Below, piece after piece: positions 960 through 62,124 of a DNA stretch of 64,000 bases. How positions within the stretch are numbered: the first letter of the stretch is position 1; each line of letters opens with the position of its first letter. Below the pieces are notes generated by a model that saw nothing but the letters and a program-made list of their open reading frames with translations, was not told the origin of the DNA and did not search any database. The stretch is from contig OX235263.1 in assembly GCA_944472135.2 (NCBI GenBank), forward strand, positions 7,671,517 to 7,735,516, in the 5' to 3' direction. The position numbers were made by a program, and so were the translations under genes. This DNA comes from Trichobilharzia regenti. Lineage: Eukaryota > Platyhelminthes > Trematoda > Strigeidida > Schistosomatidae.

Positions 960-1490
960 CGTTAATTATTTGAAGGATTTTATCATGAGCTGACATCAGT
1001 CAGAGAACCATCGGAAAACCAGCTAGGGAGTACGGCTAGACAGCTGTTTCGTCAGACCAGCGTGGGACTCCTCGTCAGTACGCACCCACCCGCCGCCACA
1101 GAGGTCCGAACCCATGGCCCTCTGATTACAAAGCGAGCTATCTCGTTGACCATTAAGCCCCTGAGATCCGATTCAATGGCTAGCCCATGAATTCTAACTT
1201 CTGCCAGACAATTTATGACCCAGCGTGACCATTTCGCAATGTCTTCTTCGAAGAGTTACTGCGTCATCTTCAACCTGCTGCATCCTACTAGTCATGGCTT
1301 CCCACTAGAACCTTAGGTGACTACTACCTACGTGAATAGGGCCAGTCACTAGTGAACAACCCAGGTGAGTGCGTACTGCTGCAGAGTCTCACACTAGGCC
1401 GACGAAACATCTGTCCAGTACTCCCAGTGCTGGTTTTCCAATGGTTTTCTAACTTATGTCGGCTCATGATGGGATCCTCCTCCAACAAAT
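960..1490. mobile_element. Hammerhead-type SINE, head-to-head foldback
   Basis: About 350 bp of the SINE lies on the minus strand (960-1310), followed at once by the 3' half on the plus strand (about 1360-1490). The minus part shows the tail (reads ATGAGCTGACATCAG on plus), the inverted ribozyme block (CAGCTGTTTCGTC on plus) and the tRNA-like box B. The plus part repeats the block as GACGAAACATCTGTCC. The same two-part arrangement recurs at 6165-6605 and 43992-44457. Confidence 0.75.
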
Positions 1491-1759
1491 ATAATTACAA
1501 TTGCATAGCTTATGAAAATAAAAAAAATGGATACGTTCTACTGAAGCCTCATGTTCCATTCGGGATCCAAGGCAATGGATATAACAAAAAGTTACAGAAC
1601 CTAAATTATATCAGGCGAGTATCGATATATGTACTGTGGATTGTGAAGAATAAAGGTTGTTACTGCTGTGGTTGTCGGAATTAGATCTGACTTCTATATG
1701 TCGACCTCAGTGCAGGAGAATATTTCCAAGCAATTAGTTGGCTACAGTATCGTGACTGA

Positions 1760-6164: not shown

Positions 6165-6605
6165 AAACCACTAACAGCTGTTTCGTCATATTTCTTTGGT
6201 AGTCCTCATCAGTAAGCACTCGTCACCACGGTTCGAATCCAGGACCTTCTGGTTACAAGGCTAGCGAGTTCGTAGACTATTCAGCAGACAGTGAGACCCG
6301 ATCTAATGGCCGACCCACAAATTCTAACTTCTGCCAAACAATTCAAGATATAGCGCGACTGGCACTAGCCAATGAATGTCATCGGTGGCGAGTGTTTGTC
6401 CTCCTCATAACCGACCTGCTGTGTACCTCACTGTCGGTCATAACTTCTCACTAGAACCTAGGTAACCGCAGGGTCCTAGGTTCGAACCCTGGTGTGGGGT
6501 GGGTGTGTACTGATGAAGAATCGAAAATCGGGTCGAAACATTTGTCCAGTGCTCCTTAGTTCTCTAGCTGATGTCAGCTGATAATGATATCCTGTAACAA
6601 AACAA
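6165..6605. mobile_element. Hammerhead-type SINE, second foldback
   Basis: A minus-oriented SINE (6165-6440; CAGCTGTTTCGTC, then box B complement GGTTCGAATCC) is followed by a plus-oriented 3' half (6465-6605) with GGTTCGAACCC and CTGATGAAGAATCG...GGTCGAAACA. The core is decayed in both halves. The order matches 960-1490, as expected if the foldback is a heritable form of the element or forms repeatedly. Confidence 0.75.
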
Positions 6606-6614
6606 ATCAAATTC

Positions 6615-6967
6615 CTGCCAACCAACACCTACCAGTTTGACTGCAGCTGCGGAACCAACTACATCGGGAGTACAATTGCGAAGGTTCATCATCGTATTTC
6701 CGAACATCATCCAACATGGTTAAGCAAAGGACAAACAAGATCTATTCATAGCTCTATTTTAGCACACCCTTATAGATAGTGAGCATAAGGTTGATGTTAA
6801 TACTGCATTTAAAATTATCTATTGCATTCCGACTAATCTTAATTTTTCTCTACGAGAACGTCTTCTACATACAACAGCTGAAGCAATAGGAATCCACCTG
6901 AAAATGACAAACCTGTGTGTTCAGAAGAAATTTCCTTACCTTGGCCATCGTTACATGAATGTATAAG
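6615..6967 (+). pseudogene. PLE GIY-YIG endonuclease fragment, second PLE
   Basis: The translation gives YQFDCSCGTNYIGSTIAKVH, RISEHHPTWLSKGQ and SIHSSILAH, then in a shifted frame the NTAFKIIYCIPTNLNFSL-like part and KKFPYLGHRYMNV. The YIG motif is intact. A one-base insertion near 6771 breaks the frame; copy 2 (35655-36008) lacks it. This is the C-terminal end of a PLE different from the one at 3955. Confidence 0.8.
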
Positions 6968-7027
6968 CCAGACTACTTCGTCTCCCTTCCCCTAAACCTT
7001 TAAAGTTATAAAATATTATAATTAGTA

Positions 7028-7235
7028 TACAATTGGTGGATGGTGGCTAGCAGTGGAATCCAGGATGCGCATTTCGTCGTATTTGGGACTCGTCGGCTGG
7101 ATGTACCTGCATTTCTCGGTGAGTGATGATGTTCCCACTGAGGCTCGAACCCAGTACCCATAGTTTCAAACGCCAAAGCGTTATCCACTAGACGACTTGG
7201 GCCACGAGAGCCACCTCTTGTGCAACGGGTCATGT
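7028..7235 (-). mobile_element. Sm-alpha hammerhead SINE, minus member of an inverted pair
   Basis: The minus strand reads GTGGCCCAAGTCGTCTAG (box A), GGGTTCGAGCC (box B) and then the Sm-alpha hammerhead at 7058-7102. Stem I is ATCCAG/CTGGAT, stem II is GTCC/CGAC and stem III is the loopless palindrome ATGCGCAT with cleavage after ATC. The core is CCGACGA instead of CTGANGA, and stem II has lost a G-C pair, so self-cleavage should be impaired. The pol III type 2 promoter boxes are internal. Confidence 0.85.
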
Positions 7236-7261
7236 TAATTATTGAATTAAATTTTTGATTT

Positions 7262-7425
7262 TCCCGTGGATAACGCTTTGGAGTTTGAAACTATGGGTAC
7301 TGGGTTCGAGCCTCAGTGGGAACATCATCACTCACCGAGAAATGCAGGTACATCCAGCTGACGAGTCCCAAATACGACGAAATGCGCATCCTGGATTCCA
7401 CTGCTAGCCACCATCCATCAATTGT
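7262..7425 (+). mobile_element. Sm-alpha hammerhead SINE, plus member of an inverted pair
   Basis: The plus copy mirrors 7028-7235 across a 26-bp spacer. It has box B GGGTTCGAGCC and a hammerhead at 7352-7396 with core CTGACGA, stem II GTCC...CGAC, GAAA and palindrome ATGCGCAT, then CTGGAT. It shares the stem II change (CGAC for GGAC) with its inverted partner, while copy 2 has GGAC in both members. The core is intact; stem II keeps three pairs. Confidence 0.88.
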
Positions 7426-8137
7426 ATACTAACTAAATGCCCAGACATCGTTGAAGCATCTGCACAAGAAGCCGACATGTCAACCTGAGACCGAGCACTT
7501 CGGTCCAATCAATCGACGGGAAAATCAAAAACTCAATTCAAATATTATAATTGTCCAAATTATTTCAGTTTTATTTATTTTGACCACTTCATCTTTAATT
7601 TACGTGTTATCCTGTGTAAAATTAATTTATTCTAACCATTTCTAACTTTTAACTGAGTGTATTAATTTTATTCGTTAATTATCACCCCACTGCTTGACAT
7701 GTTGACACTGACTGACTAATTATTGTTAACAAACATATCAGTGCCACTTGATGATTGGTAAACTGTTGTGTATTGTAATAAAAATAATGCTATACGCGTT
7801 TATATTAGAGTAGAGCTAGAGTGAGATGAGGATCTAATTGAAAAAAGTAAATATTTCTTCACTCGCTCAATCTTTCTGTTTTCTAAACGTGCAAATGGGG
7901 ATTTTTTTCTATATTTAACACCTGAAATGACCAACAATCTGTTATAACAGTTTTATCAGAATAACAATCTTCCCAAGAAAGAGCAAAAAACAATACGTAT
8001 TTCAAGAACATACTGTACAGTAAATCAACTATTTAAAGAATTCAGTGTATATAATACAATAAAAAGAGTATACAGGGAAAAATGACAACAACTCATTGAA
8101 GGAGGGCAAGTAACCCAACCAATAATATATATATAAT
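7426..8137. other. No recognisable gene; intron-like AT-rich DNA
   Basis: A 64-codon frame at 7451-7645 has no family resemblance and is not convincing. The equivalent stretch in copy 2 lies downstream of the DYNC2LI1 stop codon. Confidence 0.45.
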
Positions 8138-8344: not shown

Positions 8345-8552
8345 CTGGATCATTTGTGAGCGATAACAAAAAAGAATAGCAAAAAATGTTTTTTATGAAT
8401 GCATAAATGAGAATTTGAAAATTCATGAATAATCCCCATCCAGGGTATTAATGAAAACAAAACACATAGTTCAGTGAAGAGTCTGTCTTTTCGGTGGCGA
8501 ATTCATTTTCTATCTTAGCTGTACAATCGCAAATATATATATATATATAGCA

Positions 8553-8868
8553 GGTTGAAGATGAGGCAGTAACTCATCGAAGAAGACATTACGAAGTGGT
8601 CGCGCTATGTCGTGAATTGGCAGAAGTTAGAATTCAAGGACCATTGGATCGGGTCCCAGTGGCTCAATGGTCTACGAGCTCGCCTTGTAACCAGAAGGTC
8701 CTGGGTTCGAACCCTGGCGGTGGGTGCGTACTACTGAAGAGTCCCAAACTAGGACGAAACAGCTGTCCAGTACTCCCAGTACTGGTTTTCCAGTGGTTCT
8801 CTAACCAATGTCAGCTCATGATTAAATCCTCCATGCAATCAAACAAAATCCCTACAAAAACCAGTACT
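8553..8868 (+). mobile_element. Hammerhead-type SINE, full-length plus copy
   Basis: It begins after a TA run with AGGTTGAAGATGAGGCAGTA and ends AATCCCTACAAAAACCAGT. The head is tRNA-like: box A GTGGCTCAATGG, box B GGGTTCGAACCC. It is followed by the hammerhead-like block (8728-8773) and a tail with GTTCTCTAACC and TCAGCTCATGA. Copy 2 is at 37617-37935. Head, ribozyme sequence and tail all differ from Sm-alpha. Confidence 0.82.
8728..8773 (+). ncRNA. Hammerhead-like ribozyme, second family
   Basis: Stem I is GTACTA pairing with CAGTAC (five of six pairs). The core is CTGAAGA, which fits CUGANGA. Stem II is GTCC/GGAC with loop CAAACTA. GAAA follows, then the loopless palindrome ACAGCTGT as stem III, and cleavage after GTC. 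The layout is that of the Sm-alpha hammerhead, but stems I and III have different sequence. The mismatch is the pair next to the core. Activity is not shown. Confidence 0.7.
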
Positions 8869-8929
8869 TGAAAATATATATATATATATGTGATTTTGTA
8901 TGTACTTTTATTAACAGCTGCCTACTTTG

Positions 8930-16905: not shown

Positions 16906-17044
16906 AATTAGAATTCCTTGTTATTTATTCTTTCTAGTCGGCAGACCATTTGATCTTCTGTATCAGCACGTACTCATTAAGCAGAAGGAGCAAAAACTCA
17001 CTGAAATCACAATTTTCAGCTATTAGTTTTTGTAGGGATATTTT

Positions 17045-17250
17045 GTTTGATTGGTTGGAGGAGGATTTCACCATGGGCTGACATCTGTTAGAGAACCATT
17101 AGAAATTCATGGGCCATTGGATCGAGTTCCAGTGTCTTAATGGTCTACAAGCTCGCTAGCTTTGTAACCAGAAGGTCCTGGGTTTGAATCCTGGCGGCGA
17201 TGGGTGAGTACTGTTGAAGAGTCCCAAACTAGGGCGAAATCACAATTGTT
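17045..17250. mobile_element. Hammerhead-type SINE, composite copy
   Basis: A short minus-oriented tail (GGATTTCACCATGGGCTGAC) runs into a plus-oriented head and block: GGTCCTGGGTTTGAATCC (box B), then GTACTGTTGAAGAGTCCC and AAACTAGGGCGAAA. The core is TTGAAGA, with the first position changed from C to T. The sequence breaks off inside stem III. Confidence 0.65.
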
Positions 17251-35654: not shown

Positions 35655-36008
35655 ATTCCTGCCAACCAACACCTACCAGTTTGACTGCAGCTGTGGAACC
35701 AACTACATCGGGAGTACAATTACGAAGGTTCATCATCGTATTTCCGAACATCATCCAACATGGTTAAGCAAAGGACAAACAAGATCTATTCATAGCTCTA
35801 TTTTAGCACACCTTGTAGATAGTAAGCATAAGGTTGATGTTAATACTGCATTTAAAATTATCTATTGCATCCCCACTAATCTTAATTTTTCTCTACGAGA
35901 TCGTCTTCTACATACGACAGCTGAAGCAATAGGAATCCACCTGAAAAAGACAAACCTGTGTGTTCAGAAGAAATTTCCTTACCTTGGCCATCGTTACATG
36001 AATGTATA
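35655..36008 (+). pseudogene. PLE GIY-YIG fragment (copy of 6615-6967)
   Basis: It lacks the extra base that breaks copy 1, so the frame runs from the Cys-rich lead and NYIG through SIHSSILAHLVD, NTAFKIIYCIPTNLNFSL and on to KKFPYLGHRYMNV, then a stop. It still has no upstream RT. Confidence 0.8.
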
Positions 36009-36078
36009 AGCCAGACTACTTCGTCTCCCTCCCCCTAAACGTTTAAAGTTATAAAATATTATAATTAGTATACAATTG

Positions 36079-36263
36079 GTGGGTGGTGGCTAGCAGTGGA
36101 ATCCAGGACACCGCGCATTTCGTCCTATTTGGGACTCGTCAGCTGGATGTACCTGCATTTCTCAGTGAGTGATGATGTTCCCACTGAGGCTCGAACCCAG
36201 TACCCATAGTTTCAAACGCCAAAGCGTTATCCACTAGACCACTTGGGCCACCTCTTGTGCAAC
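36079..36263 (-). mobile_element. Sm-alpha SINE, minus member of inverted pair
   Basis: Hammerhead at 36101-36148: core CTGACGA, stem II GTCC/GGAC, GAAA, stem I ATCCAG/CTGGAT. Between GAAA and the cleavage triplet the sequence is TGCGCGGTGTC, so the loopless palindrome has gained bases. Confidence 0.85.
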
Positions 36264-36297
36264 GGGTCATATTAATTATTGAATTGAATTTTTGATT

Positions 36298-36465
36298 TTC
36301 CCGTGGATAACGCTTTGGAGTTTGAAACTATGGGTACTGGGTTCGAGCCTCAGTGGGAACATCATCACTCACCGAGAAATGCAGGTACATCCAGCTGACG
36401 AGTCCCAAATTGGACGAAATGCGCATCCTGGATTCCACTGCTAGCCACCATCCACCAATTGTATA
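36298..36465 (+). mobile_element. Sm-alpha SINE, plus member of inverted pair
   Basis: Box B is GGGTTCGAGCC. The element carries the best-preserved Sm-alpha hammerhead in the window (36389-36433) and sits 35 bp from its inverted partner. Confidence 0.88.
36389..36433 (+). ncRNA. Sm-alpha hammerhead ribozyme, intact core
   Basis: Stem I is ATCCAG/CTGGAT, all six pairs. The core is CTGACGA, stem II GTCC/GGAC with loop CAAATT, then GAAA. Stem III is ATGCGCAT without loop bases, with cleavage after ATC. This is the known schistosome hammerhead, open at stem I. Every conserved core position is kept, so self-cleavage is plausible, probably as a dimer because stem III has no loop. Confidence 0.9.
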
Positions 36466-37173
36466 CTAACTAAATGCCCAGACATCGTCGAAGCATCTGC
36501 ACAAGAAGCCGACATGTCAACCTGAGACCGAGCACTTCGGTCCAATCAATCGACGGGAAAATCAAAAATTCAATTCAAATATTATAATTGTCCAAATTAT
36601 TTCAGTTTTATTTATTTTGACCACTTCATCTTTAATTTACGTGTTATCCTGTGTAAAATTAATTTATTCTAACCATTTCTACCTTTTTAATTGAGTGTAT
36701 TAATTTTATTCGTTAATTATCACCCCACTGCCTGACATGTTGACACTGACTGACTAATTATTGTTAACAAACATATCAGTGCCACTTACTTGATTGGTAA
36801 ACTGTTGTGTATTGTAATAAAAATGCTGCAACGTGTATATTAGAGTAGAGCCAGAGTGAGATGAGGATCTAATTGAAAAAAAGTAAATATTTCTTCGCTC
36901 GCTCAATCTTTCTGTTTTCTAAACGTGCAAATGGGGATTTTTTCTATATTTAACACCTGAAATGACCAACAGTCTGTTATAACAGTTTTATCAGAATAAC
37001 AATCTTCCCAAGAAAGAGCAAAAAACAATACGCATTTCAAGAACATACTGTACAGTAAATCAACCTATTTAAAGAATTCAGTGTATATAATACAATAAAA
37101 AGAGTATACAGGGAAAAATGACAACAACTCATTGAAGGAGGGCAAGTAACCCAACCAATAATATATATATAAT
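36466..37173. other. No gene; 3' flank of DYNC2LI1
   Basis: Counterpart of 7426-8137. It lies downstream of the DYNC2LI1 stop and could hold its 3' UTR. I see AATAAA-like ACAATAAAAAG at 37090. Confidence 0.4.
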
Positions 37174-37380
37174 CTAAGCAATAAGTAATCCTTCTGAGGT
37201 GACTTGTTGTAGTAAATTATACATTTTTCTTTCAGCTTGACGTCTTTTCTCTTCCAGTTCATTGTCTTTTGCCTTTCGAGCTGTGTCGATGAGTGATTCA
37301 GCATATTGAGGATCTTTACTTGGATTGAAGACACCAGTTGTCTCTTGTTTCGTATGACGTAATGATGTTGTCTCAAGTTT
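37174..37380 (-). CDS. DYNC2LI1: DYNC2LI1 homologue, last exon
   Basis: The minus strand has acceptor TTATCCAG followed by AAACTTGAGAC in phase 0, then 68 codons and TAA. NPSKDPQYAE matches the conserved C-terminal motif of dynein-2 light intermediate chain, and a charged helix (ARKAKDNELEEKRRQAERK) follows. It is on the same strand as exons 1-7 at 46471-47496. Exon 7 ends in phase 1 and this exon starts in phase 0, so at least one more exon (about 20-25 residues) must lie in the 9-kb interval; I could not find it. This interval is filled with the duplicated repeats. Confidence 0.78.
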   Translation of the reverse strand, partial: KLETTSLRHTKQETTGVFNPSKDPQYAESLIDTARKAKDNELEEKRRQAERKMYNLLQQVTSEGLLIA

Positions 37381-37564
37381 CTGGATAATTTGTGAGCGAT
37401 AACAAAAAAGAATAGCAAAAAATTTTTTTATGAATGCATAAATGAGAATTTGAAAATTCATGGATAATCCCCATCCAGGGTATTAATGAAAACAAAACAT
37501 GTAGTTCAGTGAAGAGTCTGTCTTTTCGGTGGCGAATTCATTTTCTATCTTAGCTGTACAATCG

Positions 37565-37567
<3 letters not shown>

Positions 37568-37615
<48 letters not shown>
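37568..37615. repeat. TA microsatellite, expanded in copy 2
   Basis: A TA run of about 24 units; the same site in copy 1 (8533-8550) has about 8. It directly abuts the 5' end of the hammerhead-type SINE. Confidence 0.9.
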
Positions 37616-37616
<1 letters not shown>

Positions 37617-37935
37617 AGGTTGAAGATGAGGCAGTAACTCATCGAAGAAGACATTGCGAAGTGGTCGCGCTATGTCGTGAATTGGCAGAAGTTAGAATTC
37701 ATGGCCCGGACATTGGATCGGGTCCCAGTGGCTCAATGGTCTACGAGCTCGCTAGCCTTGTAACCAGAAGGTCCTGGGTTCGAATCCCGGTGGGTGCGTA
37801 CTGATGAAGAGTCCCAAACTAGGACGAAACAGCTGTCCAGTACTCCCAGGTTTTCCAGTGGTTCTCTAACTGATGTCAGCTCATGATTAAATCCTCCATG
37901 CAATCAAACAAAATCCCTACAAAAACCAATACTTG
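37617..37935 (+). mobile_element. Hammerhead-type SINE (copy of 8553-8868)
   Basis: Box A GTGGCTCAATGG, box B GGGTTCGAATCCC and block at 37798-37843. Stem I GTACTG/CAGTAC is perfect here, but the core reads ATGAAGA (first position A instead of C). Stem II GTCC/GGAC and ACAGCTGT are intact. The tail AATCCCTACAAAAACCA is as in copy 1. Confidence 0.82.
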
Positions 37936-37989
37936 AAAATATATATATATATATGTGTTATTTTGTATGTACTTTTATTAACAGCTGCC

Positions 37990-38400
37990 TAATTTGCTGG
38001 CTGGTTCCATATACTGAAGATCAGATGGTCAGCCAACCGGCTAGCCAGAAAGAATTGGCAACAACAAACCCTGACAACAAACTAGTCAATAGTCTATTGC
38101 ACAATAAATATGTAGGAGAAAATCGAGATGGGTTGATTGTGCATACGTTGAGAAGGCAATCGAATGACATGGCGCTCGATGCAGGTCATCCCTCGAATGG
38201 AAAGCTTGGAGTGGATCGTCGGTGTGAGGGTGACATGGAGGAAGTCATGCGAATTGAAGGAGAGGGAGGTGAGAGATTATAGTCAGTCGTGGGGCTAGCC
38301 AGCTTAAGAGGACGACAGAAAACAAAACAAAGTGTAGATGTGCTGTTGAAGCCAGCCCTATGTTCCACTTGGAACCCAAAGGAATAATAATAATAAGAAG
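37990..38400 (+). mobile_element. RTE (subfamily 1) 3' end (copy of 8930-9345)
   Basis: Ends CCTATGTTCCACTTGGAACC, AAAGGAATAATAATAAG. It has a short deletion relative to copy 1 near 38205. Confidence 0.75.
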
Positions 38401-38468
38401 AAGTGGATCTTGGAGATCACACGAAGAGTGGATGCTTCTGCTCCACTACTGACAGTAACCTTTAGCCA

Positions 38469-38801
38469 CCCTACTAATCATCAATTTTCTCAAAAGGGGA
38501 GGTGATATGTATCCATATAATATGTGTGTTTTGTTTGACAGTCTGATATATCTTGCTATGTATATATGGATCGATATTCCATTACAATTAGCCAATCATG
38601 TTAAGACTGTCTATTGATTTGTTCATTTGAATATTCGCTCACACACTTGTCCGGACATTCATATATTTTTGCTCTCACACACTTGTGTCATTGATTCTCC
38701 TTGTGTTTGGAATAGAGAAGTATCATCGCAAACCTAGTGGTCTTCTGATTTCCGTCTTTCTTGCGTCAGGACTATTAAATTCTCGACCAGTACATAACAC
38801 A
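38469..38801. mobile_element. 333-bp insertion present only in copy 2
   Basis: Copy 1 reads TTTAGCCATATCATCAAC without a break; copy 2 has 333 bp between TTTAGCCA and TATCATCAAC. The insert is the reverse complement of part of 24011-24556. On minus it starts TGTTATGTACTGGTCGAG. No clear target duplication beyond CA. It could be a solo LTR or a short non-autonomous element. Confidence 0.7.
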
Positions 38802-38934
38802 TATCATCAACAATCTTCAGTCATTGGTTTTTAGCATTTCCACGATGAAAGCCAAGTCACTCCTCACACCTCCATAAGTTGTTCAAACCACCAGTCAAAA
38901 ACTTTGCTGATAGACACCAGGTATGGATTTGATC

Positions 38935-39135
38935 ATTCTCTCTAACTCTTTTCAATCTAATTTGATATCAGCCAATATTACTCGTCAAGGTAGCTGATAA
39001 CTTGGCATGAGTGTAGCTCGTAACCTAGCCATCTTGATCGATATAATTTCAAAACCTTATCGATTGATTTTCCCTCCTTACCTACTAACAGTTTACATAT
39101 ATAATCTTAACATTACTTACCATATTTTACCATTT
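38935..39135 (-). mobile_element. Decayed RTE (subfamily 2) tail (copy of 9540-9745)
   Basis: Same remnant as copy 1, nearly identical. Confidence 0.65.
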
Positions 39136-39249
39136 AACATCAAAGGCAGAACGTTAATATCTATTTTCAAGAGTTGGTCTGTAAGGATTAAATTTGTTTT
39201 TACAAGTTCAACCAGTGAGGTCCACCAACCAGTCAGTCAAGTGTGAGGA

Positions 39250-40195
39250 TGGATTTCCCACCGATGATATTGGTTGGTGACAGTTGCGCTAAATGCATCA
39301 CGAATTGGTAGAAGTTAAAATTCATGCCATTAAATCGGGTCAGGTTCCAGTGGCTGAGTGATTTATAAGCTTGCCTTGTAACCGGAAGGTCCTGGGTTTG
39401 AACACCAGTGGGTGGTTAGTGCTCAGCAGTTTGTTTCGTTCTTGTCTATGGTTCTGAAACATGGCCAATATGAGTTGAAGACATGAAAAGGTTGACTGTT
39501 TTTGATCATAGATGTCTACGTTCTCTTTCTCACGTTAGGTGGTTTCACAAGATAAGTAATGTTGACGTTAGGCGTAGAGTGTTGGACAAAGAGGGAAAAT
39601 CAATCGACGAGGCTATAAAGTTACATAGATTGAGATGGCTAGGTCACGTGCTGCGCATGCCTAACCATCGCCTCCCCCGATGGACATTACTAGCTGATAT
39701 AGGTTCAGGTTGGAAAAGAGTAAGTGGTGGCCAAACAAAAACATGGCCTCATCAATCCATGAAATCCTTGACAGTTAAACTGAGTCGGTCAGGTAGGGAG
39801 ATGCAGACTCCCGGGTTGGGGCCCCCTGAACTGACTCTGGGAATCAATGGCTGGAGACAATAGGTGACATGGCTCAGAATATTTGTCAATGGCGCAGGTG
39901 TATTCAGTCTCTGTAATCTTTCATATTCCTTCCTACCATTACCCATTCTGTTTCACTCTTATACTTGTCAAACCCTATTGATTCTCTTCACTCATCTTCT
40001 TGTCTACCTTTGTGTGCTATTTGGAACGTGGCAAGTCAAACCGCCGCACTTCGGCGCCAAGTTCTATGTTGAATCCAGACATACAGACTGCCGATGATTC
40101 CCAAACTAGGCTGACGAAACAGCTGTCCAGTACTCCAGTTCTGGCTTTCAATGGTTCTCTAACTGATATTTATCCGTGGTCAAACTCGTAAATGT
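39250..40195 (+). mobile_element. Split hammerhead-type SINE with RTE 3' end inside
   Basis: Counterpart of 9870-10800. The RTE part (about 39430-40095) contains the frame 39483-39863: MKRLTVFDHRCLRSL, VRRRVLDKEGKSIDEAIKL, RWLGHVLRMPNHRLPRW. The SINE resumes at CCCAAACTAGGCTGACGAAA. Copy 1 has two small in-frame changes in this region. Confidence 0.72.
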
Positions 40196-40472
40196 CTATT
40201 ATCAACGTCAATTTCTCTCTTTCAGTGACCATATCTCATAGTCATCATCAAGGAGGATAGAACGAACTATTGTGCAGTACACACGTCGTTCCAAGTGTTT
40301 GAAAATACTTGTCAGTTTTTATATAATGACATACCTATTGGCTAGGTGTTACTATAAAATGCTTTTCAGCAAGACTGAACACACTCATCCTAGTAATATA
40401 TGTGAAAAATTTGGGCACTGTGGCAGTAAGTAATTCTATATTAGTTTGTTTATCAGATGTATCACAAAATGA

Positions 40473-41380
40473 GTGAAACAGTATCACATTTACTGGATCA
40501 CACAGTTTCGAACACAATTTATTATTGTTCATAATCATCCCATCAATTATAACCATACGACCTGTCCTATGTCAGTGAAAATAGGATTGGTGAAATGTTT
40601 AAGTGATAGAGCACAAAAACTAAGAAGTACTAAGGAAAATGTAAGACAAGAAGTGAGGCATATAAGAGGAGAAGCTTTGAAACTTGATAATTACCATGGT
40701 CAGGAAATATGTACGGAAATGCAAAAATAAAATAAATAATAATAATAGTGATAGTGATAATAATATTAATGACGACGTGCATGTCAAACATGCACAAGAC
40801 AACATCAACAATAAGGAATCTAAATCATTAGTGGTACTTCTCCACAAAGAAGGAATCTCAGAAATCACCTTATGCAGAATTCTTAACAAAGCAGGAATAA
40901 AAGTAGCTGGTATTCAAACCAACCACAAAGTCAATTAGAAACAATCTTTGTCGGTTGAAGGATTCTATGGAGCCAAGACAATTTAATTCACCTAATACCC
41001 TGTTGGAATTATTGTCAGGTTAAATATATAGGTCAAAGTAGTAGAACAGGGACAGTCAGACTAGCAGAGCACAAAAACCTAGCAAAATCTAGATTGGTTG
41101 ACCCAAATAAGATAAGAAATCTATAGAATAGGATAGCTACAGCACTCACCACATGTAATTACACACAACCATACAATAGGATGGGATAAGATGACAGTTT
41201 TAAAATCTAATGTAACAGAGTGGAGGGAGGGAGAGATTGATAACAGAAGCTTTGTTTATCGAATCAACTGCAAATACGTGTAACAGGAATGATTCAACAC
41301 ATGTTCAGTCGGATATCCGGAAAATTCTACTACCCCAACGACGACAAATAGGAGAAGACAAAGAAAACTATAAAACTCAA
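40473..41380 (+). pseudogene. PLE RT C-terminus and GIY-YIG (copy of 11097-12010)
   Basis: The same linker (LVKCLSDRAQKLRS) and spacer as copy 1, split into two frames at about 40700 by a deletion around TACCATGGTCAGG. The YIG-containing stretch at about 41020 is kept. Confidence 0.62.
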
Positions 41381-41614
41381 GTTTCAAAGTCATGTGATTA
41401 TAATTGATGATATGATTGTGAACAACAATGAATTGTGTTCAAAACATTGTCATCCAGTAAATCATACTGTTTCACTGTGTGATATATATCTAATGAACAA
41501 ACTAACACTCATCCTAGACTTCTGCAAGACCTGTACTATATACAACCTCATTCTGTGGTGCAAACACAGGAGGGTGTAGATATTATAGAGAAGATTTGTA
41601 GCTCAGGTGGATGA

Positions 41615-41847
41615 TTTTGATGTGGTTTTGTTCTCTGAGCTGGATGGTTAGTTTGCGAAGCTTTCATCACCTTACTGGGTGACATCATCATCTCTCCTGG
41701 TGACCACCAGAAGAGATGATTAATAAACTCGTGGAGAAATCTAAAAACTCACTTCAAATTGAAGTATGCGCTGAAGATGTCACCCAGTAAGGTGATGAAA
41801 GCTTCGCAAACTAACCATCCAGCTCAGAGAACAAAACCACATCAAAA
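41615..41847. repeat. 72-bp inverted repeat, PLE terminal (copy of 12251-12483)
   Basis: Arms 41615-41686 and 41776-41847 are again exact reverse complements and identical to those of copy 1, although surrounding sequence has diverged by a few percent. Confidence 0.85.
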
Positions 41848-42329
41848 ACAGGAGGGTGTTCTCCTCCCACCCCGGCTCCTAGATGAACCAACCAACACAA
41901 TAATACATCCATCTATCGACGACTATGAAAAACAGACTTCGAAGCTTCAAGTTGATTTCAGGTGAAACAGAACAGTTAAGTTGTCAGCGGTGAGGAGAAG
42001 CGGGGGTGAAAATTAGGTGCACTTAGAAATGAAAGCTTAGAGGCTATAAAATGTGAAAAATATCAATAAAATAAATAAATAAATAAGCAATTACTTGAGG
42101 GAATTTATTGCAGAAAACAGTTTTCCACATCTCTAGTGGTGATTTCACTGTCAAACATTTTATTTCCATATCAGAACTTGGTGGTACCCCTGTAATTCAT
42201 GAAAAGAAAAAGGAACACATCTCGACACATACTAGAATACACATTCGATTTGAATAATTTTATAAGACAATATATATTTTTAGTGAAAAGATTATTTTCA
42301 ATGAATTCGTTATCAATCGTATAAATATA

Positions 42330-42630
42330 TGATTAGGAGTGTTTCTCGTCAGATTTCCGAGAACATCATCCTGCATAGCGGTTAAGTAAGGGACAAACAA
42401 AATCTATTCACAGCGTTATTCTATCTCATCTTGTGGATACAGAACACAAAACTGATGGTAAACCGGCAGCTTTCAAAGTCATTTACGCCAAACCAACAAA
42501 ACTTGACTCTGCCTTAAGAGCTCGATTACTAAATATTGCTGAGGCTGACTGTTGGGATCCACATTAAGAAGTCTAATATATGTGTTCAAAAGAAGAAGCT
42601 AGTTGGTTCAGACATTGTCCTTACCGCTTG
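42330..42630 (+). pseudogene. PLE GIY-YIG tail (copy of 12985-13290)
   Basis: Same decayed endonuclease end as copy 1, ending AEADCWDPH. Confidence 0.62.
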
Positions 42631-42964
42631 GCCATCTAGGTTTGAATGATCCTCAATTTTTTGTAGAAATTTCCTTAATTTTAGTTGATATTCTATGTGC
42701 TATTATATTTTTATTATTATAATTTATGCATCTTTAATGAACTGTAATTCCATTGTGATCTTACTTAACAAGTCGATATTATTCAATAAAACACTAATAA
42801 TATTGACTACTAATCTAGAATATTCTATGCACATAAACATATATATGTGATTGTAGAGCCAGAAGGAGAGGAAATTATCGAAATTGATATTACTAGCTTA
42901 ATTGTTTCGCTTTTTATAGATGCCTGAATGAATATTTTCGCTATATTAAAATATGCGATTGTTA

Positions 42965-43210
42965 AGAAATCGTATTCTACAGCCAATGAATACTTTCCAC
43001 ACGGATATGAAAGCCCATTCCAGCATGTTAGATGGAAGCCTTGATTGGCCTAGGTTTCGTGCTAGTTTGTACTCAGCAGTCAGAAAGTTTTATCTGGAAC
43101 CTTGAAGGAACTCATGTCTCTTCTGAGATTCGAATCTTTGTCACCCACTGAGTGCTGAAGTCAGAGACGTTACCACTGAGAAGCTATTCGGGTTGACTAG
43201 CGTTTGACTT
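42965..43210 (-). mobile_element. tRNA-derived SINE (family C; copy of 13610-13850)
   Basis: Box A- and B-like elements as in copy 1, with box B here reading GATTCGAATCTC-like on minus (GAGATTCGAATC on plus), slightly closer to consensus. Confidence 0.5.
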
Positions 43211-43384
43211 CCTGTAGGACTGTATCGGGTACCTTGATTGGAAAATAGTTAGTAACTAGTGTAGTGTGTCTACTCGACTTTTTGGTACAGACTGAATTCT
43301 ACCAGTCAATTGCTAACTAGCACAAAACCTGACTTTAAGGCTTCCTGCCGATTACCTCCAACCATCTAATACCCACATTTCACA

Positions 43385-43699
43385 GTGCACCATAATGGGG
43401 GCCACCTAGTGGTATGGTGGCCACATTACAAACTTAAATGGTATAATTCAGTCTGCATCAAACGAAGGACTAGAGACATTACCCTAGTCACTAACTACTG
43501 TCCAGTCAAAACATTCCAACATGATTTCACAAGGGAAGAGGAAAAGAATGTGAGAAGCTCTATCCTAGAACACTTGATCAACTTCATCACTCAACCTACC
43601 CTCAAAATGATTCTAAGATCATCTATCAGCTTCATGGCAACTTGCCGTGTTTTCTTCGTTTTGAACGTTAAAGAAAATGGAGGTCTTGACTATTCATAA
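43385..43699 (+). pseudogene. Diverged PLE GIY-YIG remnant (copy of 14085-14345)
   Basis: An open frame of 104 codons: TREEEKNVRSSILEHLINF, then SSISFMATCRVFFVLN. The matching region in copy 1 has an in-frame stop. Confidence 0.45.
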
Positions 43700-43804
43700 A
43701 TGTAAGCCAAACATTTTTGTGTTTACAAAAAGAAGTAGGTATAGTAGCTATTTCTACCTTGACCGTAGAATAGAAAAGAGCGGGAGGGTGGCAGTTTACT
43801 CATT

Positions 43805-43981
43805 TTGATTCGACTTTTAAAATAAGTGAAGTGATCAACACGCTAAGTGACCACTTCACTTTCTATCTTTAAGGTAGCAGTCGGTGTACACCAGTCCTGG
43901 GGCATTATATTATATTTGATACGGGGGAATCGCACTCCAGATATTAGAAGATTTCTATCTACTGGAAGGCGTTCAGTAGGC
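43805..43981 (-). mobile_element. RTE (subfamily 2) RT fragment, left part
   Basis: The plus text AATAAGTGAAGTGATCAACA, CTTCACTTTCTATCTTTAAG and CACCAGTCCTGGGGCATTAT follows 20500-20590 of the intact RTE. It is interrupted by a SINE at 43992 and continues at 44469. The duplication breakpoint (43863) lies inside it. Confidence 0.75.
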
Positions 43982-43991
43982 TCCACATTTT

Positions 43992-44457
43992 CAAGTGCTA
44001 GTTTGTAGGGATTTAGTTGATTGGTTACAGGATTTCATCATGAGCTGACATTATTTAGAGAGCCATTGGAAAACCAGTACTGGGAGTACTGGACAGCTGT
44101 TTCGTCAGCCTAGTTTGGGACTCTTCAGCAGTACGCACCCACCACTGGGGGTCGAATCCAGGACCTTCTGGTTACAAGGCGAGCTCGTAGACCATTAAGC
44201 CACTGGAACCCGATCCAATGGCCCATGAATTCCAACTCCTGCCAATTGACGACACAGCGCGACCACTAGCCAATGTCTTCGGCAAGTAGTTTTCCTCACA
44301 CTCGAGCTCGCCTTGTAACCAGAAGGTCCTGGGTTCGAACCCCGGTGGGTGCATACTGATGAAGAGTCCCAAGCTAGGCTGACGAAACAGCTGTCCAGTA
44401 CTCCCAGGCTTTCCAATGGTTCTCTAACTGATGTCAGCTTATGACGAAATCCTGTGA
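43992..44457. mobile_element. Hammerhead-type SINE foldback with 11-bp target duplication
   Basis: Flanked by exact CTCCACATTTT (43981-43991 and 44458-44468) within an RTE fragment whose uninterrupted relative is known (20650). This shows the whole 466-bp foldback inserted as one unit: a minus full-length SINE (to about 44280) joined to a plus copy (44300-44457) that begins just upstream of box B. The plus block is CTGATGAAGAGTCCC with GGCTGACGAAA. Confidence 0.85.
44086..44134 (-). ncRNA. Hammerhead-like ribozyme, second family
   Basis: On minus: stem I GTACTG/CAGTAC (six of six pairs), core CTGAAGA, stem II GTC...GAC (GGCTGAC on the 3' side, two extra bases relative to GGAC), GAAA, palindrome ACAGCTGT, and cleavage after GTC. 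All core positions fit CUGANGA...GAAA. Confidence 0.72.
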
Positions 44458-47496: not shown

Positions 47497-48265
47497 TTCA
47501 AATATTCGGGGTTGGATGTACACAATCAACGAGACGTTTTATAAGTACACATCCGATCTTCAGTGTTCAATATTCAATTCTCATGGAGATTCTCACAGTC
47601 TCAGTGAAAGACTAGAATTCCCCCTGGTTATTTACTGATTATTTTCTTATTTTAAGTTTTTTTATGCAGTGTTATTTTGTGCTTTACAAGCTCAAATGAG
47701 TGAGTATCAGCTCAAGTGGATACAGCATCACTTAATTTCAAAAACTGAAAAATTCTCAAACAGCAATTGTTAACATGTATTTCTGACGTTGTTTACTACT
47801 GAACAGCAGTGGAGGGTTACCATCAATTGAGCAATGACATTTCGAACAACACTTAAGTGCTTCAATATAATGTTGGTATTTGAATATTTCCTCAATGACT
47901 TGTCTGAGAGGATTTCTTTTGGGTTTTTCATTTGCGGCAATCCAAATTCTAGGTTTATTCTCCTTTATCTGCCGGCTGCTAACTCATATGACTACTGTTT
48001 TTCCAAGATTTCTCATGCAGTTTTTAGAACTCCGACGAAAAATATCCACGTCTTAATTAGTGGAAGAACAATCGAGTTTGTCAACGTTTGTTGAGTTTGA
48101 TCATGCCACATCAAACTTTTAACCTGCTACTTGAGCCTCTCTGTTATCTGGATACTCGCTAATGAGTCTTATAATATATACACCGCTTGCAATTCATTTC
48201 ACTTTGCAATGTCTAACGCATGCCATATGAAAATTGGTCATGAAAATTCAGCATAACAAGTTTTT
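47497..48265. other. Upstream region of DYNC2LI1, no gene called
   Basis: Should hold the promoter, but I see no clear motif. The minus strand at about 47780-47960 is open in two frames after an AG (one reads ANEKPKRNPLRQVIEE); without a family match I leave it unassigned. Confidence 0.35.
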
Positions 48266-48269
48266 CAAG

Positions 48270-48640
48270 TGTTGGTTTGTAGGGATTTAGTTGATTGGTT
48301 ACAGGATTTCATCATGAGCTGACATTATTTAGAGAACCATTGGAAAACCAGTACTGGGAGTACTGGACAGCTGTTTCGTCAGCCTAGTTTGGGACTCTTC
48401 AGCAGTACGCACCCACCACTGGGGGTCGAATCCAGGACCTTCTGGTTACAAGGCGAGCTCGTAGACCATTAAGCCACTGGGACCCGATCCAATGTCCGGG
48501 CCATGAATTCTAACTTCTGCCAATTCACGACACAGCGCGACCACTAGCCAATGTCTTCGGCGAGTATTTGTTCTCACACCCGACATTAATGTGCAGCTTC
48601 TCACTGAAATATCACTTATCTACCTAACAATAGTCTTTTT
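48270..48640 (-). mobile_element. Hammerhead-type SINE, full-length minus copy
   Basis: The 3' end (plus: GTTGGTTTGTAGGGATTTAG) is on the left, then TTCATCATGAGCTGACATT, the ribozyme block, box B complement GGTCGAATCC, box A region ACCATTAAGCCACTGGGACC, and the 5' end near CTTCTCACTGAAA. A single, non-foldback copy with the best-preserved block of this family. Confidence 0.85.
48360..48408 (-). ncRNA. Hammerhead-like ribozyme, second family, best copy
   Basis: Identical in the block to 44086-44134: GTACTG, CTGAAGA, GTC (loop) GAC, GAAA, ACAGCTGT, C, CAGTAC. Stem I can extend no further on the 5' side, but the 3' side repeats AGTACT after TCCC, which could form a stem I internal loop like that used for tertiary contacts in natural hammerheads. 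Confidence 0.73.
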
Positions 48641-56072: not shown

Positions 56073-57269
56073 ATGGCGGATGAGGGTATCGAGCCAAAGT
56101 TTGATGATGTCCTGAAACAGGTAAAAGATAGTGTCAATCAATCTATGAGCAAGTTCGCCAGTATATTGAATCTCACCCCTAGAATAGAGCAGTCTGAGGG
56201 CAAAACGCAATAATTGATGACGAATAGGCCTCAGAGAGGTGGATATCGAGAAGACTCCATGATGTCTAGTAATGCATATAGACCTAGTGAGTGTAACACG
56301 TTTCGTAGTACATCCTCAACAGATGAGGTACAAGATGCAAGACAAACACGGTTGTGTTTTACACGTTTGCAAGAGGTGCATACAAAGGTGAACTGTGAAC
56401 CAGTGAGCAAGTTCAGTGATAAGCTAAATGTAAACTCCAGGCCTGACTCCGAATTGTGTGACGATAACGGTGCGGTGAAGAAGTCTGTAGTTGCAACTGG
56501 TAAGCCATTGTTGAATAGAGTGTCACAGAATAGAGTTGCTGCTTCAGAGTGCAGTTCTGACTCCACAAGTTTACAAGGTATTACTAGTCAGAGTGAAGTT
56601 ATAAAACCTTTAATGATTTGTGAGGAGGAACCAAAATTGTCTACTTCTGTTATTAAAGAGTTTGAAAATGATGAACTTGACGGTAAATTGAATATTCGTG
56701 ATAATGATCATGATAGTGCAGATTTGTCTTTGGTTGATCATGATGAGATGAGGGATATGCCTACTACTGCTAAGTTAAATAAAGGTTCTGTACAACTACA
56801 ACGTGAATTAGAATTGAACGCAGATGCAGTTCCAGAAGGTGTGCATACTTGTGAGACAGTCAGTGTAATTGATCAGCATGTAGCCCACCTATCATCAGAT
56901 GATAGTGCTAAACCCGAACTAGTAGTGAAAGACAGCAGTGGTGGTAATCTTGCAGTTGGACAACTATCTGAAAGCTGAAAAAGAACAGCTTCTGATCCAC
57001 CACTAAGTTCATCACCTTGTGTCACTCAGTCATCGTTGGTGTTTTTATCCACAATGAAATGGACGTCCATGAACTCACGTGCCTTATGCAATGACTATGA
57101 TAGTATTGGTGCGTTTGAAAAGACGAAAGATATTGCTCAGTTTAGTGAGAATAAGCCAAGTGTACACGAGAGAGTAATTGTTAAATTGACTTGCATGAAT
57201 AAAGGCATTTCAAGTTTCAAGTTACTAATTGAATGCTATTATCTTTGGTGTAAATTACTCTGTTTCTAA
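56073..57269 (+). pseudogene. Long acidic ORF with two in-frame stops, BEL/Pao internal region
   Basis: One reading frame stays open from the ATG at 56073 to 57269 except for TAA at 56211 and TGA at 56976. The first 46 codons include FDDVLKQVKDSVNQSMSKF. The long middle part (254 codons) is rich in Ser, Asp and Glu without a recognisable domain. The last part includes SVHERVIVKLTCMNKGISSF, which recurs on the minus strand at 62118-61990. No retroviral protease, RT or integrase motif is visible. The product is unknown. Confidence 0.45.
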
Positions 57270-57418
57270 ATTTGGTTGACCAGATACTTCGTGTGTTTGT
57301 TCGTCATCTATATTCTACGATACAATCACATGAGCGCGTTACCGTTCAGATTTGAGGATTTAGCTCATAGAAGGAAGTTAGCAAATGAACTCTGCGACGA
57401 ATTTCCAACCTAGGGCGT

Positions 57419-58062
57419 CAACCTGAGAAGGGTTGTAGGCGTACTGCTGTAAGTCCTACAGTTCTTCAAAGGGTAGCGCATCAATGAGCAGTCCAATGTG
57501 CTTGGTGTATGATCCTGTACATATGTTCATATTGTATATACTGAATTGATATCATCTGTCATCTAGCTGTTGGTATTTCTGTTTGTGTCCGGACGACTTC
57601 CGCTTGGATCATCAACCTGAGAAGGAATGTAGGCGTACTGCTGTAAGTCCTACAGTTCTTCAAGGGTAGTTCGTCAAGGCAGAATCCACAACATTTGATG
57701 TGTTGATTGTACATATATTTGTGTTAAATAATTGTGTGAGTACCAATTATTGTAATTGTTGGTTAATCTTGTTTGCGTCCGGATATTCTTCAACCTACAA
57801 TCGTCAACCTGAGAAGGAATGTAGGCGTACTGCTGTAAGTCCTACAGTTCTTCAAGAGTAATTCGTCAAGGCAGAATCCACAACATTTGATGTATTGATT
57901 GTACATATATTTGTGTTAAATAATTGTGTGAGCTCCAATTATTGTAATTGTTGGTTAATCTTGTTTGTGTCCGGACATTCCACAACTTACAATCATCAAC
58001 CTATGAAGGGTTGTAGGCGTACTGGTGTAAGTCCTGCGATTCTTCAAAGGAATTCCATCGAG
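57419..58062 (+). repeat. Tandem repeat, 192-194-bp unit, about 3.3 units
   Basis: Unit starts CAACCTGAGAAGG at 57419, 57613, 57805 and 57997 (last one CAACCTATGAAGG). Each unit has TGTAGGCGTACTGCTGTAAG followed by TCCTACAG, a potential hairpin (TGTAGG/CCTACA). The same array is present in inverse order at about 61210-61855. It lies between the coding region and the 3' LTR. Confidence 0.9.
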
Positions 58063-58757
58063 ACACGATCTGCGAGTTTGCGTGTACTGTTTGTATATAC
58101 GTGTGGTGTGTCATATCAGTTGGTGTCTTTGGATTCACTGTGTTTACTTGTTGTTTTCGTATCTTGTCGTTATTGCATAATTCTGTTAAAATTTTCGTCG
58201 TGATTACTTCTGAAGTTGTTTCTAGTCTTCTACATCCATGAATGAATTGATTGATGTTAAAGACAACAGACGGGTCGTATACACCGGAGAGGCTAGTGGT
58301 GAGAATGAAATGCACATGGAGACAATTGTTAGCTGCGGTCCCACACGCCGGGGAGAAAGAGTGTAAACGACTGAGGCTCGCATACGTCACCGTTACTATG
58401 ACTGAGACAGAATGAGTGATAAGCGATTTCAGTGGTAATTGGTAGTGAGTAGATAAGAGGATGTGCGTGGAGTATCATGAGGTGGTGCTATGGTCACGTT
58501 GCATTCTGCAAGAGTCATTCTAGCAAGTGACGATTGTGTTGCAAGAGGATGTGTCAAGAGGATGCCTTTAACTGGAAGGCGTAAGTCGTCACCGATGAGT
58601 GAGATTGTGCTGTGGGTATGCTTGTGGTGTGTTGGCTTTGCTGTTTGTTTTCCATTTCAGCTCTGTCCGTGTGACCCAGGTTCTCGCAATGGCATCCAAG
58701 TCAACATGTGTTGGTCGTGATGGAAAAAAAGGGATGGATCCCTTTTTTGGCGGGGAG
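58063..58757 (+). other. Internal 3' region with polypurine tract
   Basis: Noncoding as far as I can tell; the 76-codon frame at 58490-58720 is repeated unchanged on the right arm but resembles nothing. It ends GGGATGGATCCCTTTTTTGG then CGGGGAG directly before TGTCAATG. That is a GATCC palindrome followed by a polypurine-tract-like sequence. Confidence 0.55.
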
Positions 58758-59110
58758 TGTCAATGTAGTTGAAGATTGAACGATCAATTCATGGTTGTTT
58801 GCTCAAACCCGACTCCATATTTTTCGCGGGAGTCATCAATACGGCAGTCATCGTCTCATCGTTCGCTGTTCGGTGGAAGAGGGAAAACTATCAAAAGTGT
58901 TGTCGCGATTTATGTTTTCGACAATTATTCTTAGATTTTGTGTACAATTACCTAATGCTTTTCTCTCTATTGGCGCGTGAATAAATGATTCTCGTGTCGC
59001 CAACCTGTGTTCTGGTTTTTCGCGTTGGTTATTACATATTGTTTCTGAATGTCTTCCAAGGACAGTGTGAAGTCCAGTGTGGTTAGACCTGGACATTTGC
59101 AGATACTGCG
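58758..59110 (+). mobile_element. BEL/Pao-type LTR (type A), plus strand
   Basis: Starts TGTCAATGTAGTTG right after the polypurine tract. The first 110 bp equal LTR type B; after CGCTGTTC the sequence differs (GTGGAAGAGGGAAAAC). Its 3' boundary is uncertain. A partial type A LTR also occurs on minus at 62950-63062. Because the plus element would have type B at its 5' end and type A at its 3' end, it looks recombinant. Confidence 0.7.
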
Positions 59111-60157: not shown

Positions 60158-60513
60158 TGTCAGACACGTCTCGTAAACCGTTAATGTCCAGCTCTTGCTA
60201 CGCTCGGGCTCACGCTGTTCCTTGAAGTTTCTCAGAAACGCTTAGTAATAACGGACGAAAAATCCAAAACACCAATTGTTGACTTGAGTATTCTGTATTG
60301 TTACACCAACATATAAATCAAGTATGACTAAGGTCTGTGAACAAATATTACAATAATAAATCATAATATTACTTCTGACGATGTTTTACTCTTCTTTCTG
60401 AACAGCGACCGATGAGACGATGACTGCCGTATTGATGACTCCCGCGAAAAATATGGAGTCGGGTTTGAGCAAACAACCATGAATTGATCGTTCAATCTTC
60501 AACTACATTGACA
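60158..60513 (-). mobile_element. BEL/Pao-type LTR (type B), minus strand
   Basis: 356 bp, TGTCAATG...GTGTCTGACA on minus, preceded by the same polypurine tract. It is the 3' LTR of the minus element whose 5' LTR is at 62125-62444. Confidence 0.85.
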
Positions 60514-62124
60514 CTCCCCGCCAAAAAAGGGATCCATCCCTTTTTTTCCATCACGACCAACACATGTTGACTTGGATGCCATTGCGAGAACCTGGGTCAC
60601 ACGGACAGAGCTGAAATGGAAAACAAACAGCAAAGCCAACACACCACAAGCATACCCACAGCACAATCTCACTCATCGGTGACGACTTACGCCTTCCAGT
60701 TAAAGGCATCCTCTTGACACATCCTCTTGCAACACAATCGTCACTTGCTAGAATGACTCTTGCAGAATGCAACGTGACCATAGCACCACCTCATGATACT
60801 CCACGCACATCCTCTTATCTACTCACTACCAATTACCACTGAAATCGCTTATCACTCATTCTGTCTCAGTCATAGTAACGGTGACGTATGCGAGCCTCAG
60901 TCGTTTACACTCTTTCTCCCCGGCGTGTGGGACCGCAGCTAACAATTGTCTCCGTGTGCATTTCATTCTCACCACTAGCCTCTCCGGTGTATACGACCCG
61001 TCTGTTGTCTTTAACATCAATCAATTCATTCATGGATGTAGAAGACTAGAAACAACTTCAGAAGTAATCACGACGAAAATTTTAACAGAATTATGCAATA
61101 ACGACAAGATACGAAAACAACAAGTAAACACAGTGAATCCAAAGACACCAACTGATATGACACACCACACGTATATACAAACAGTACACGCAAACTCGCA
61201 GATCGTGTCTCGATGGAATTCCTTTGAAGAATCGCAGGACTTACACCAGTACGCCTACAACCCTTCATAGGTTGATGATTGTAAGTTGTGGAATGTCCGG
61301 ACACAAACAAGATTAACCAACAATTACAATAATTGGAGCTCACACAATTATTTAACACAAATATATGTACAATCAATACATCAAATGTTGTGGATTCTGC
61401 CTTGACGAATTACTCTTGAAGAACTGTAGGACTTACAGCAGTACGCCTACATTCCTTCTCAGGTTGACGATTGTAGGTTGAAGAATATCCGGACGCAAAC
61501 AAGATTAACCAACAATTACAATAATTGGTACTCACACAATTATTTAACACAAATACATGTACAATCAACACATCAAATGTTGTGGATTCTGCCTTGACGA
61601 ACTACCCTTGAAGAACTGTAGGACTTACAGCAGTACGCCTACATTCCTTCTCAGGTTGATGATCCAAGCGGAAGTCGTCCGGACACAAACAGAAATACCA
61701 ACAGCTAGATGACAGATGATATCAATTCAGTATATACAATATGAACATATGTACAGGATCATACACCAAGCACATTGGACTGCTCATTGATGCGCTACCC
61801 TTTGAAGAACTGTAGGACTTACAGCAGTACGCCTACAACCCTTCTCAGGTTGACGCCCTAGGTTGGAAATTCGTCGCAGAGTTCATTTGCTAACTTCCTT
61901 CTATGAGCTAAATCCTCAAATCTGAACGGTAACGCGCTCATGTGATTGTATCGTAGAATATAGATGACGAACAAACACACGAAGTATCTGGTCAACCAAG
62001 TGTAGACACAGAGTGATTTACACGAACGATAATAGCATTCAAATAGTAACTTGAAACTTGAAATGCATTTATTCATGCAAGTCAATTTAACAATTACTCT
62101 CTCGTTTACACTTGGCTGATCCTC
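60514..62124 (-). mobile_element. Internal region of a non-autonomous BEL/Pao-type element
   Basis: Only about 1.6 kb lies between the two minus LTRs. It has the SVNERVIVKLTCMNKCISSF tail of the long ORF, the 193-bp tandem repeats and the polypurine tract. It contains no gag, protease, RT or integrase, so it depends on a helper. No matching target duplication is seen (GGTAAT outside one end, ACCATT outside the other). Confidence 0.75.

Follow-up and report, generated by a model that had tools for sequence, protein, structure and literature searches.

The window (the whole 64,000-nt stretch of DNA analyzed here) contains copies of 2 hammerhead-bearing repeats: Sm-alpha and a second repeat, of which the copy at 48262 is the one under study. 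Matches to the Rfam model for type I hammerheads (RF00163, gathering threshold 34 bits) were obtained for 4 motifs of the second repeat, with E values of 2e-10 to 1.5e-7, and the remaining 4 matches in the window, at 7058 (minus strand), 7352 (plus), 36101 (minus) and 36389 (plus), are Sm-alpha-like. The presence of such elements suggests a fluke of the schistosomatids. The features are as follows, with unit positions written as u for the second repeat and s for Sm-alpha.

48360..48408, minus strand: type I hammerhead motif of the 48262 copy, the target copy (RF00163, 42.7 bits)
44086..44134, minus strand: type I hammerhead motif (RF00163, 42.7 bits)
8728..8773, plus strand: type I hammerhead motif with an A.C mismatch at the core end of stem I (RF00163, 51.3 bits)
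37798..37843, plus strand: hammerhead motif with C3 replaced by A (RF00163, 50.8 bits)
48262..48558, minus strand: copy of the second hammerhead repeat, u116-399, second subfamily (87% identical to the unit consensus)
43988..44280, minus strand: repeat copy, u116-399, half of an inverted pair (unit alignment)
44303..44453, plus strand: partner of the 43988 copy in head-to-head orientation, u209-356, with C3 replaced by A in its motif (unit alignment, sequence)
8546..8874, plus strand: repeat copy (L031), u80-399, a simple insertion in an AT microsatellite (unit alignment)
8651..8727, plus strand: tRNA-like part of the 8546 copy, with box B GGTTCGAACCC, adjoining the hammerhead (sequence)
37611..37939, plus strand: duplicate of the 8546 copy through the 29-kb tandem duplication (unit alignment)
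7014..7547 (7014-7271 minus, 7266-7547 plus): Sm-alpha-like inverted composite, outer ends s84 and s192, with a duplicate at 36057-36584
971..1495 (971-1358 minus, 1358-1495 plus): older inverted composite of the second repeat, with a duplicate at 29886-30395
6174..6628 (6174-6458 minus, 6462-6628 plus): older inverted composite of the second repeat (unit alignment)
17013..17239 (17013-17105 minus, 17099-17239 plus): older inverted composite of the second repeat (unit alignment)

The original prediction was that a tRNA-headed SINE, seen at 4 places in the window, carries an element with all hammerhead hallmarks. The 3 segments proposed for comparison with Rfam (8728-8773, 44086-44134 and 48360-48408) all scored above the cut-off, at 42.7-51.3 bits against 34, as did the motif at 37798. 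By sequence, the motifs are confirmed as real, and their ribozyme activity is putative. The complete set of hallmarks was present in the target copy, which has stem I GUACUG/CAGUAC, CUGAAGA, GAAA, a stem III ACAGCUGU without a loop and a GUC triplet; stem II reads GUCC/GGAC, except in 2 copies with an additional GCU, where it reads GUC/GAC. It was incomplete in 2 other copies: the 8728 motif has A as the final base of stem I, giving the A.C mismatch, and the 37798 motif has A at the conserved C3 and is therefore predicted to be inactive.

The copies at 8.6 kb and 37.6 kb are duplicates of each other inside a tandem duplication of approximately 29 kb (1-14508 and 28920-43862, main blocks 94-97% identical), so that the 4 copies originally named represent at most 3. 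This duplication also includes 5S rRNA-like matches at 2632 and 31548 (69.4 bits each). Elsewhere in the window we observed a 1.7-kb inverted repeat (57147-58871 and 60400-62124, 99.2% identical) that includes a 192-bp tandem repeat, and an Rfam mir-3492 match at 20438-20515 on the plus strand (53.4 bits), which lies inside a minus-strand stop-to-stop frame of 562 aa (19877-21565). When read, this frame resembles a LINE reverse transcriptase, and the mir-3492 family may therefore be a LINE fragment.

Comparison of the flanks of 49 copies, together with a consensus from 12 copies, defined a repeat unit of approximately 399 nt. It consists of a body (u1 to about u186), a tRNA-like part (about u187-259) with box B GGTTCGAATCC, the hammerhead (u259-304, cleavage predicted after u298) and a tail (u305-399) that terminates in ACTTGAAAA. 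In tandem copies u1 directly follows u399, and the subfamily of the 44-kb and 48-kb copies has its own sequence at the u399/u1 junction. Short insertions are clustered at 2 places: 26 events of 2-7 nt immediately beyond the 3' side of the hammerhead, at u307-310 (about 85-fold coverage), and 17 events, mostly of 3 nt, at u245-249, close to where the tRNA-like part ends (78-fold coverage). The description of the repeat as tRNA-headed proved to be loose. Box B and a tRNA-like part that directly adjoins the hammerhead are present, but the repeat reaches roughly 160-190 nt to the 5' side of that part, which is consequently central; the part scored 22.3 bits against the Rfam tRNA cut-off of 29 (locus L033), and ARAGORN reported no tRNA in the window or in 25 loci. 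Production of the whole unit by pol III is doubtful; a TTTT run is located 3' of the hammerhead (by eye).

We searched the 954-Mb genome (548 contigs) and obtained at least 44 matches with one copy as query (best 40 of 2354 candidates scored) and at least 46 with another (best 40 of 5764), and the motif is therefore not a chance occurrence. Among 20 stretches of 3 kb, chosen by round-number position, 8 had a match to the second repeat at E≤1e-3 (one match of just 30 bp), which extrapolates to very roughly 55,000-250,000 insertions genome-wide; the same 60 kb contained 4 Sm-alpha-like matches. From an Rfam hammerhead search of the genome (best 74 of 304034 candidates scored), 30 candidates were fetched, all of them Sm-alpha-type, so that no count of the second family follows from them.

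That the second repeat is distinct from Sm-alpha was borne out by BLAST comparison of the 2 units, in which the significant matches were restricted to a 27-nt segment of the hammerhead (core, stem II and loop II; 93%) and a 25-nt stretch around box B (84%), with an additional weak match at box A. The prediction that stems had been replaced while the core was kept also agrees with the Rfam alignments, where we counted by eye 6 of 14 pairs in stems I and III that are changed on both sides with pairing intact; such paired changes were seen (by eye) only between the 2 families. The resemblance fits one ribozyme module with exchanged stems. Sm-alpha (W36.2) likewise has a tRNA-like part to the 5' side of a type I hammerhead with a loopless stem III, a core, stem II and loop II that are nearly identical, dispersed copies and, in this genome, inverted composites. 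It differs in its unit length (329 nt here, versus 399), in stems I and III, in an unrelated body and tail, and in its 2 start sites (see below), which are about 113 nt apart.

Sm-alpha has been recognized as a hammerhead SINE (PMC2770079, PMC8490949), and the S. mansoni satellites W25.2, W26.2 and W27.2 (399-428 bp) also bear hammerheads, of type I with a very short stem III; 3 of the 5 variants tested of W25.2 and W36.2 self-cleaved in vitro, the 3 satellites have tens of thousands of autosomal partial copies, and orthologues of W25.2 and W27.2 exist in other schistosomes (PMC8490949). Judged by length and description, the second repeat (399 nt) probably belongs to the same family, and it is unlikely to be strictly new; in itself, the existence of a second hammerhead repeat in schistosomes is no novelty. 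In the accessible text of PMC8490949 the word tRNA does not occur and inverted insertions are not described, and 6 short stretches of our unit found no match in open-access literature text. The second repeat also resembles the metazoan non-LTR retrozymes, which are elements of 150-450 bp with type I hammerheads, multi-unit copies and target duplications of more than 4 bp (PMC7229834, PMC7761336; retrozymes are also treated in PMC6155905), in that it forms multi-unit hammerhead repeats with target duplications. However, retrozymes are said to lack promoters, whereas the second repeat has a tRNA-like part with box B; the word inverted is absent from the main text of PMC7229834, and our repeat is known from DNA.

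Variation among copies was described from 167 alignments, without loci L031, L054 and L015 and without the second half of the 29-kb duplication. Core and stems were intact in 53 of 115 copies that cover the motif. Within the family, the covariation proposed for stems I and III was not observed; of 1610 pair cells, 1477 were formed, versus 1477.8 expected from independent columns, as is expected of copies that decay neutrally from few sources. The stem I pair nearest the core is A-U in place of G-C in both halves of the L045 composite. Also, the hammerhead was not more conserved than its surroundings, the substitution rates being 0.0445 for the hammerhead, 0.0418 for the tRNA part, 0.0443 for the tail and 0.0617 for the body. 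Of 78 alignments, 13 have the C3-to-A variant, and L042 has it in each of its halves; it must therefore have existed in a template, and an inactive ribozyme was no bar to insertion. Among the resolved insertions described next, ends did not accumulate at the cleavage site (u298/299), and from these 2 observations cleavage is seemingly not required.

We resolved 43 insertions of the second repeat and 30 of Sm-alpha. We left out insertions interrupted by the end of a locus, those with a best identity below 88% and duplicates (loci L031, L054, L010, L015, L020, L023 and L026, together with the second half of the 29-kb duplication), and since most loci are the best matches to a query of 236 or 45 nt, short and old copies are under-represented. 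We observed that 27 of 43 second-repeat insertions (63%) and 21 of 30 Sm-alpha insertions (70%) were head-to-head inverted composites; 16 and 8, respectively, were simple, and one Sm-alpha case was neither. Composites with gaps of more than 22 nt are undercounted by our script, and L092 was counted as two simple insertions, although its two parts together make a composite that has a target duplication.

Target duplications with a score of at least 9 were found for 27/43 second-repeat insertions (21/27 inverted, 6/16 simple) and 19/30 Sm-alpha insertions (15/21 inverted, 4/8 simple), compared with 56/1806 and 10/870 in mispaired-flank controls. They were 10-21 bp long for the second repeat and 10-18 bp for Sm-alpha, and rich in A+T (81% in 22 chosen second-repeat examples and 71% in 15 for Sm-alpha, versus 60% in the window). 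Those of the second repeat tended to start with AAA (15, 15 and 17 of 22 at the first 3 positions), and A was found at position -2 before the duplication in 16/22.

The outer ends of the composites were mostly confined to 2 sites in each family. For the second repeat they fell at u397-399 and u346-372 in 21/27 composites, 25-53 nt apart (median 33), with L021 (365/361), L027 (367/355) and L059 (399/398) as exceptions, together with L032, L053 and L065, whose other ends lay at 110, 279 and 207. For Sm-alpha they fell at s69-84 and s186-196 in 19/21 (exceptions L008 and L016), 108-120 nt apart (median 113). In contrast to these mostly fixed ends, the inner junctions were all distinct (24/24 and 20/20 composites ordered by a stricter script), so that each composite arose independently. 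Loci L049 and L054, about 149 kb apart on contig C1, contain an identical composite in an identical target duplication, and either the genome or the assembly is duplicated there. The inverted-composite architecture common to the second repeat and Sm-alpha is new; as far as we searched the open-access literature, a mirror-image insertion structure is undescribed for hammerhead SINEs, and we found nothing there linking hammerheads with twin priming.

The composites also provide information about the template. Halves longer than one unit were found in 10 second-repeat and 3 Sm-alpha cases, including a 670-nt half of the 329-nt unit in L005, and from these in-phase units the template was multimeric or circular. 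Among 18 inverted pairs of at least 92% identity, the halves differed at 10/135 diagnostic cells, versus 36% between loci, so that both halves derive from one RNA or one source. Predicted circular folds were more stable than shuffled sequences (z of -3.35 and -3.08, from 60 shuffles of a single unit sequence for each family), and the 2 least-structured 30-nt windows of the predicted circles (u349-378 and u381-11; s59-88 and s166-195) would contain or touch the start sites in both families. This overlap is suggestive only, because A-rich composition alone would favor it. The 30 nt preceding u399 are 80% A/C, versus 51% in the unit, and the excess is weak at the other 3 start sites (57-67%).

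The reading we prefer, with a probability of roughly 0.55 for the explanation as a whole, is that the element is an apparently non-coding, hammerhead-bearing retroelement of about 399 nt, a SINE of the retrozyme type, and that Penelope-like machinery moves these SINE-like retrozymes by two-strand, target-primed copying. A multimeric or, as we infer, circular RNA would be copied by a reverse transcriptase from both cut strands of the target; u397-399 would be the start of one cDNA and u346-372 the usual start of the other, and both would extend upstream through at least one in-phase unit before being joined head to head, which would give a mirror-image insert within a single short target duplication. 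Sm-alpha would be inserted likewise, from its own 2 sites. The enzyme would come from a Penelope-like element, and the hammerhead with the A/C-rich start region to its 3' side would be a cis module that it recognizes.

A competing account of the template, to which we give somewhat less than an even chance, is that it was a linear read-through multimer of tandem genomic copies and not a ribozyme-made circle, the hammerhead being irrelevant to mobility; this account bears solely on the template, and the enzyme could still be Penelope-like. We observed that tandem in-phase units differed at 12/57 diagnostic cells (13 pairs), more than the halves did (P=0.012). This difference is evidence that some linear multimers, or switches of template, were involved, and it weighs against a model with circles only. 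The recurrent C3-to-A variant and the lack of ends at the cleavage site favor this account as well, and in vitro hammerhead mutants leave insertion by a Penelope-like enzyme unaffected (PMC11167929). Against it, several multi-unit inserts have near-identical units (differences of 2/263 in L033 and 0/74 in L035), and among the matches listed (best 40 of 2354 and best 40 of 5764) there were no long tandem arrays, so that a source of multimers was not seen.

With regard to the enzyme, the repeats could instead be ordinary tRNA SINEs mobilized by a LINE that twin-primes very often, with the hammerhead as a passenger. The lengths of the target duplications and their A-rich first bases fit a LINE, the AAA start being expected from LINE-type priming too, and LINE ORFs are abundant. 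The L1 target site is TT/AAAA, and the bases before our duplications, with A predominant at -2, are unlike it; nor would a fixed second start site and a multi-unit template be expected. Also, twin priming is known for human L1, with inversions at 18-22%, but human Alu elements moved by L1 are inverted in 0.02% (PMC12016303), versus the 63% and 70% observed here. We therefore regard this account as unlikely. Far less probable is snap-back, in which the first cDNA folds and copies itself into the inverted half: the halves are near-identical, and 11/24 second-repeat and 1/20 Sm-alpha composites would allow it, but in 13/24 and 19/20 the second half covers positions missing from the first, which rules it out as a general route. 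Least credible of all is satellite turnover at the DNA level or inversion after insertion, for although the probable S. mansoni relatives form satellite arrays on the W chromosome (PMC8490949), a single target duplication encloses both halves in 21/27 and 15/21 composites and the inner junctions are all different.

For the Penelope-like machinery that we prefer, there are published parallels. Copies of Penelope-like elements have direct and head-to-head inverted pseudo-LTRs with target duplications of 8-10 bp, a 31-bp tail at one end and an inverted pseudo-LTR that is 37 bp shorter (PMC3846280). A purified Penelope-like enzyme cuts both strands and extends them from 2 internal sites; the most frequent start is in an AC-rich stem loop at 111-118 nt of the ORF, and the hammerhead cut is at 26 nt of that ORF (PMC11167929). 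By subtraction, the published start is 85-92 nt beyond the cut; in the second repeat this distance is about 100 nt for the primary start and about 48-74 nt for the other, and in Sm-alpha the distances are about 34-49 and 151-161 nt. The shared properties thus comprise head-to-head inverted ends within one short target duplication, in-phase partial tandems and a type I hammerhead near the start site (PMC3846280, PMC11167929). The difference of about 30-40 nt between the 2 ends of Penelope-like elements is matched by the second repeat (median 33, in 21/27 composites) and not by Sm-alpha (median 113), and the second repeat differs in having a paired stem III, a tRNA-like part and no known ORF of its own. 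By this analogy, the insertion signature points to Penelope-like machinery for both families.

Penelope-like reverse transcriptases have been published for schistosomes and for Trichobilharzia szidati (PMC4465651), and 2 such elements were examined in the present genome: a 665-aa ORF in L075 (RVT_1 at 2e-10) and a 5'-truncated Poseidon-like copy in L012 (1781-2698, minus strand; RVT_1 at 4.2e-08). GIY-YIG-like ends were assigned by eye in both ORFs and were not scored by Pfam; as a probe for Penelope elements, Pfam GIY-YIG gave a sole match, to what by eye is an SLX1-like gene. Neither element proved to be an intact partner. BLAST of both units against them gave only short, chance-like matches besides the SINE copies beside L012, and Rfam reported no hammerhead in 9 kb around the L075 element. 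The L075 ORF (449-2446; flanks in L102 and L103) is bounded by a 286-bp inverted repeat of 99.7% identity, upstream of which is another palindromic repeat, and the L034 composite appears, by eye, to be inserted in sequence that resembles the 5' region of this element. Among the titles and abstract openings that we surveyed in the open-access literature, none tied Penelope to a tRNA-type hammerhead SINE.

The insertion ends are a pointer toward the copying enzyme and yield 2 start-site predictions for each family, which are testable with the type of purified enzyme already published. They also suggest a reason for the presence of hammerheads in these SINEs, namely that the ribozyme is part of a module read by the enzyme. 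More tentatively, the hammerhead SINEs of schistosomatids may be a distinct kind of SINE, in which a tRNA-like part is fused to a cis module of the Penelope type, made up of the hammerhead and an A/C-rich region with 2 start sites, and in which Penelope-like machinery copies a circular RNA from both target strands at once. If this is true, the mirror-image insert would be the normal product of these SINEs and no accident.
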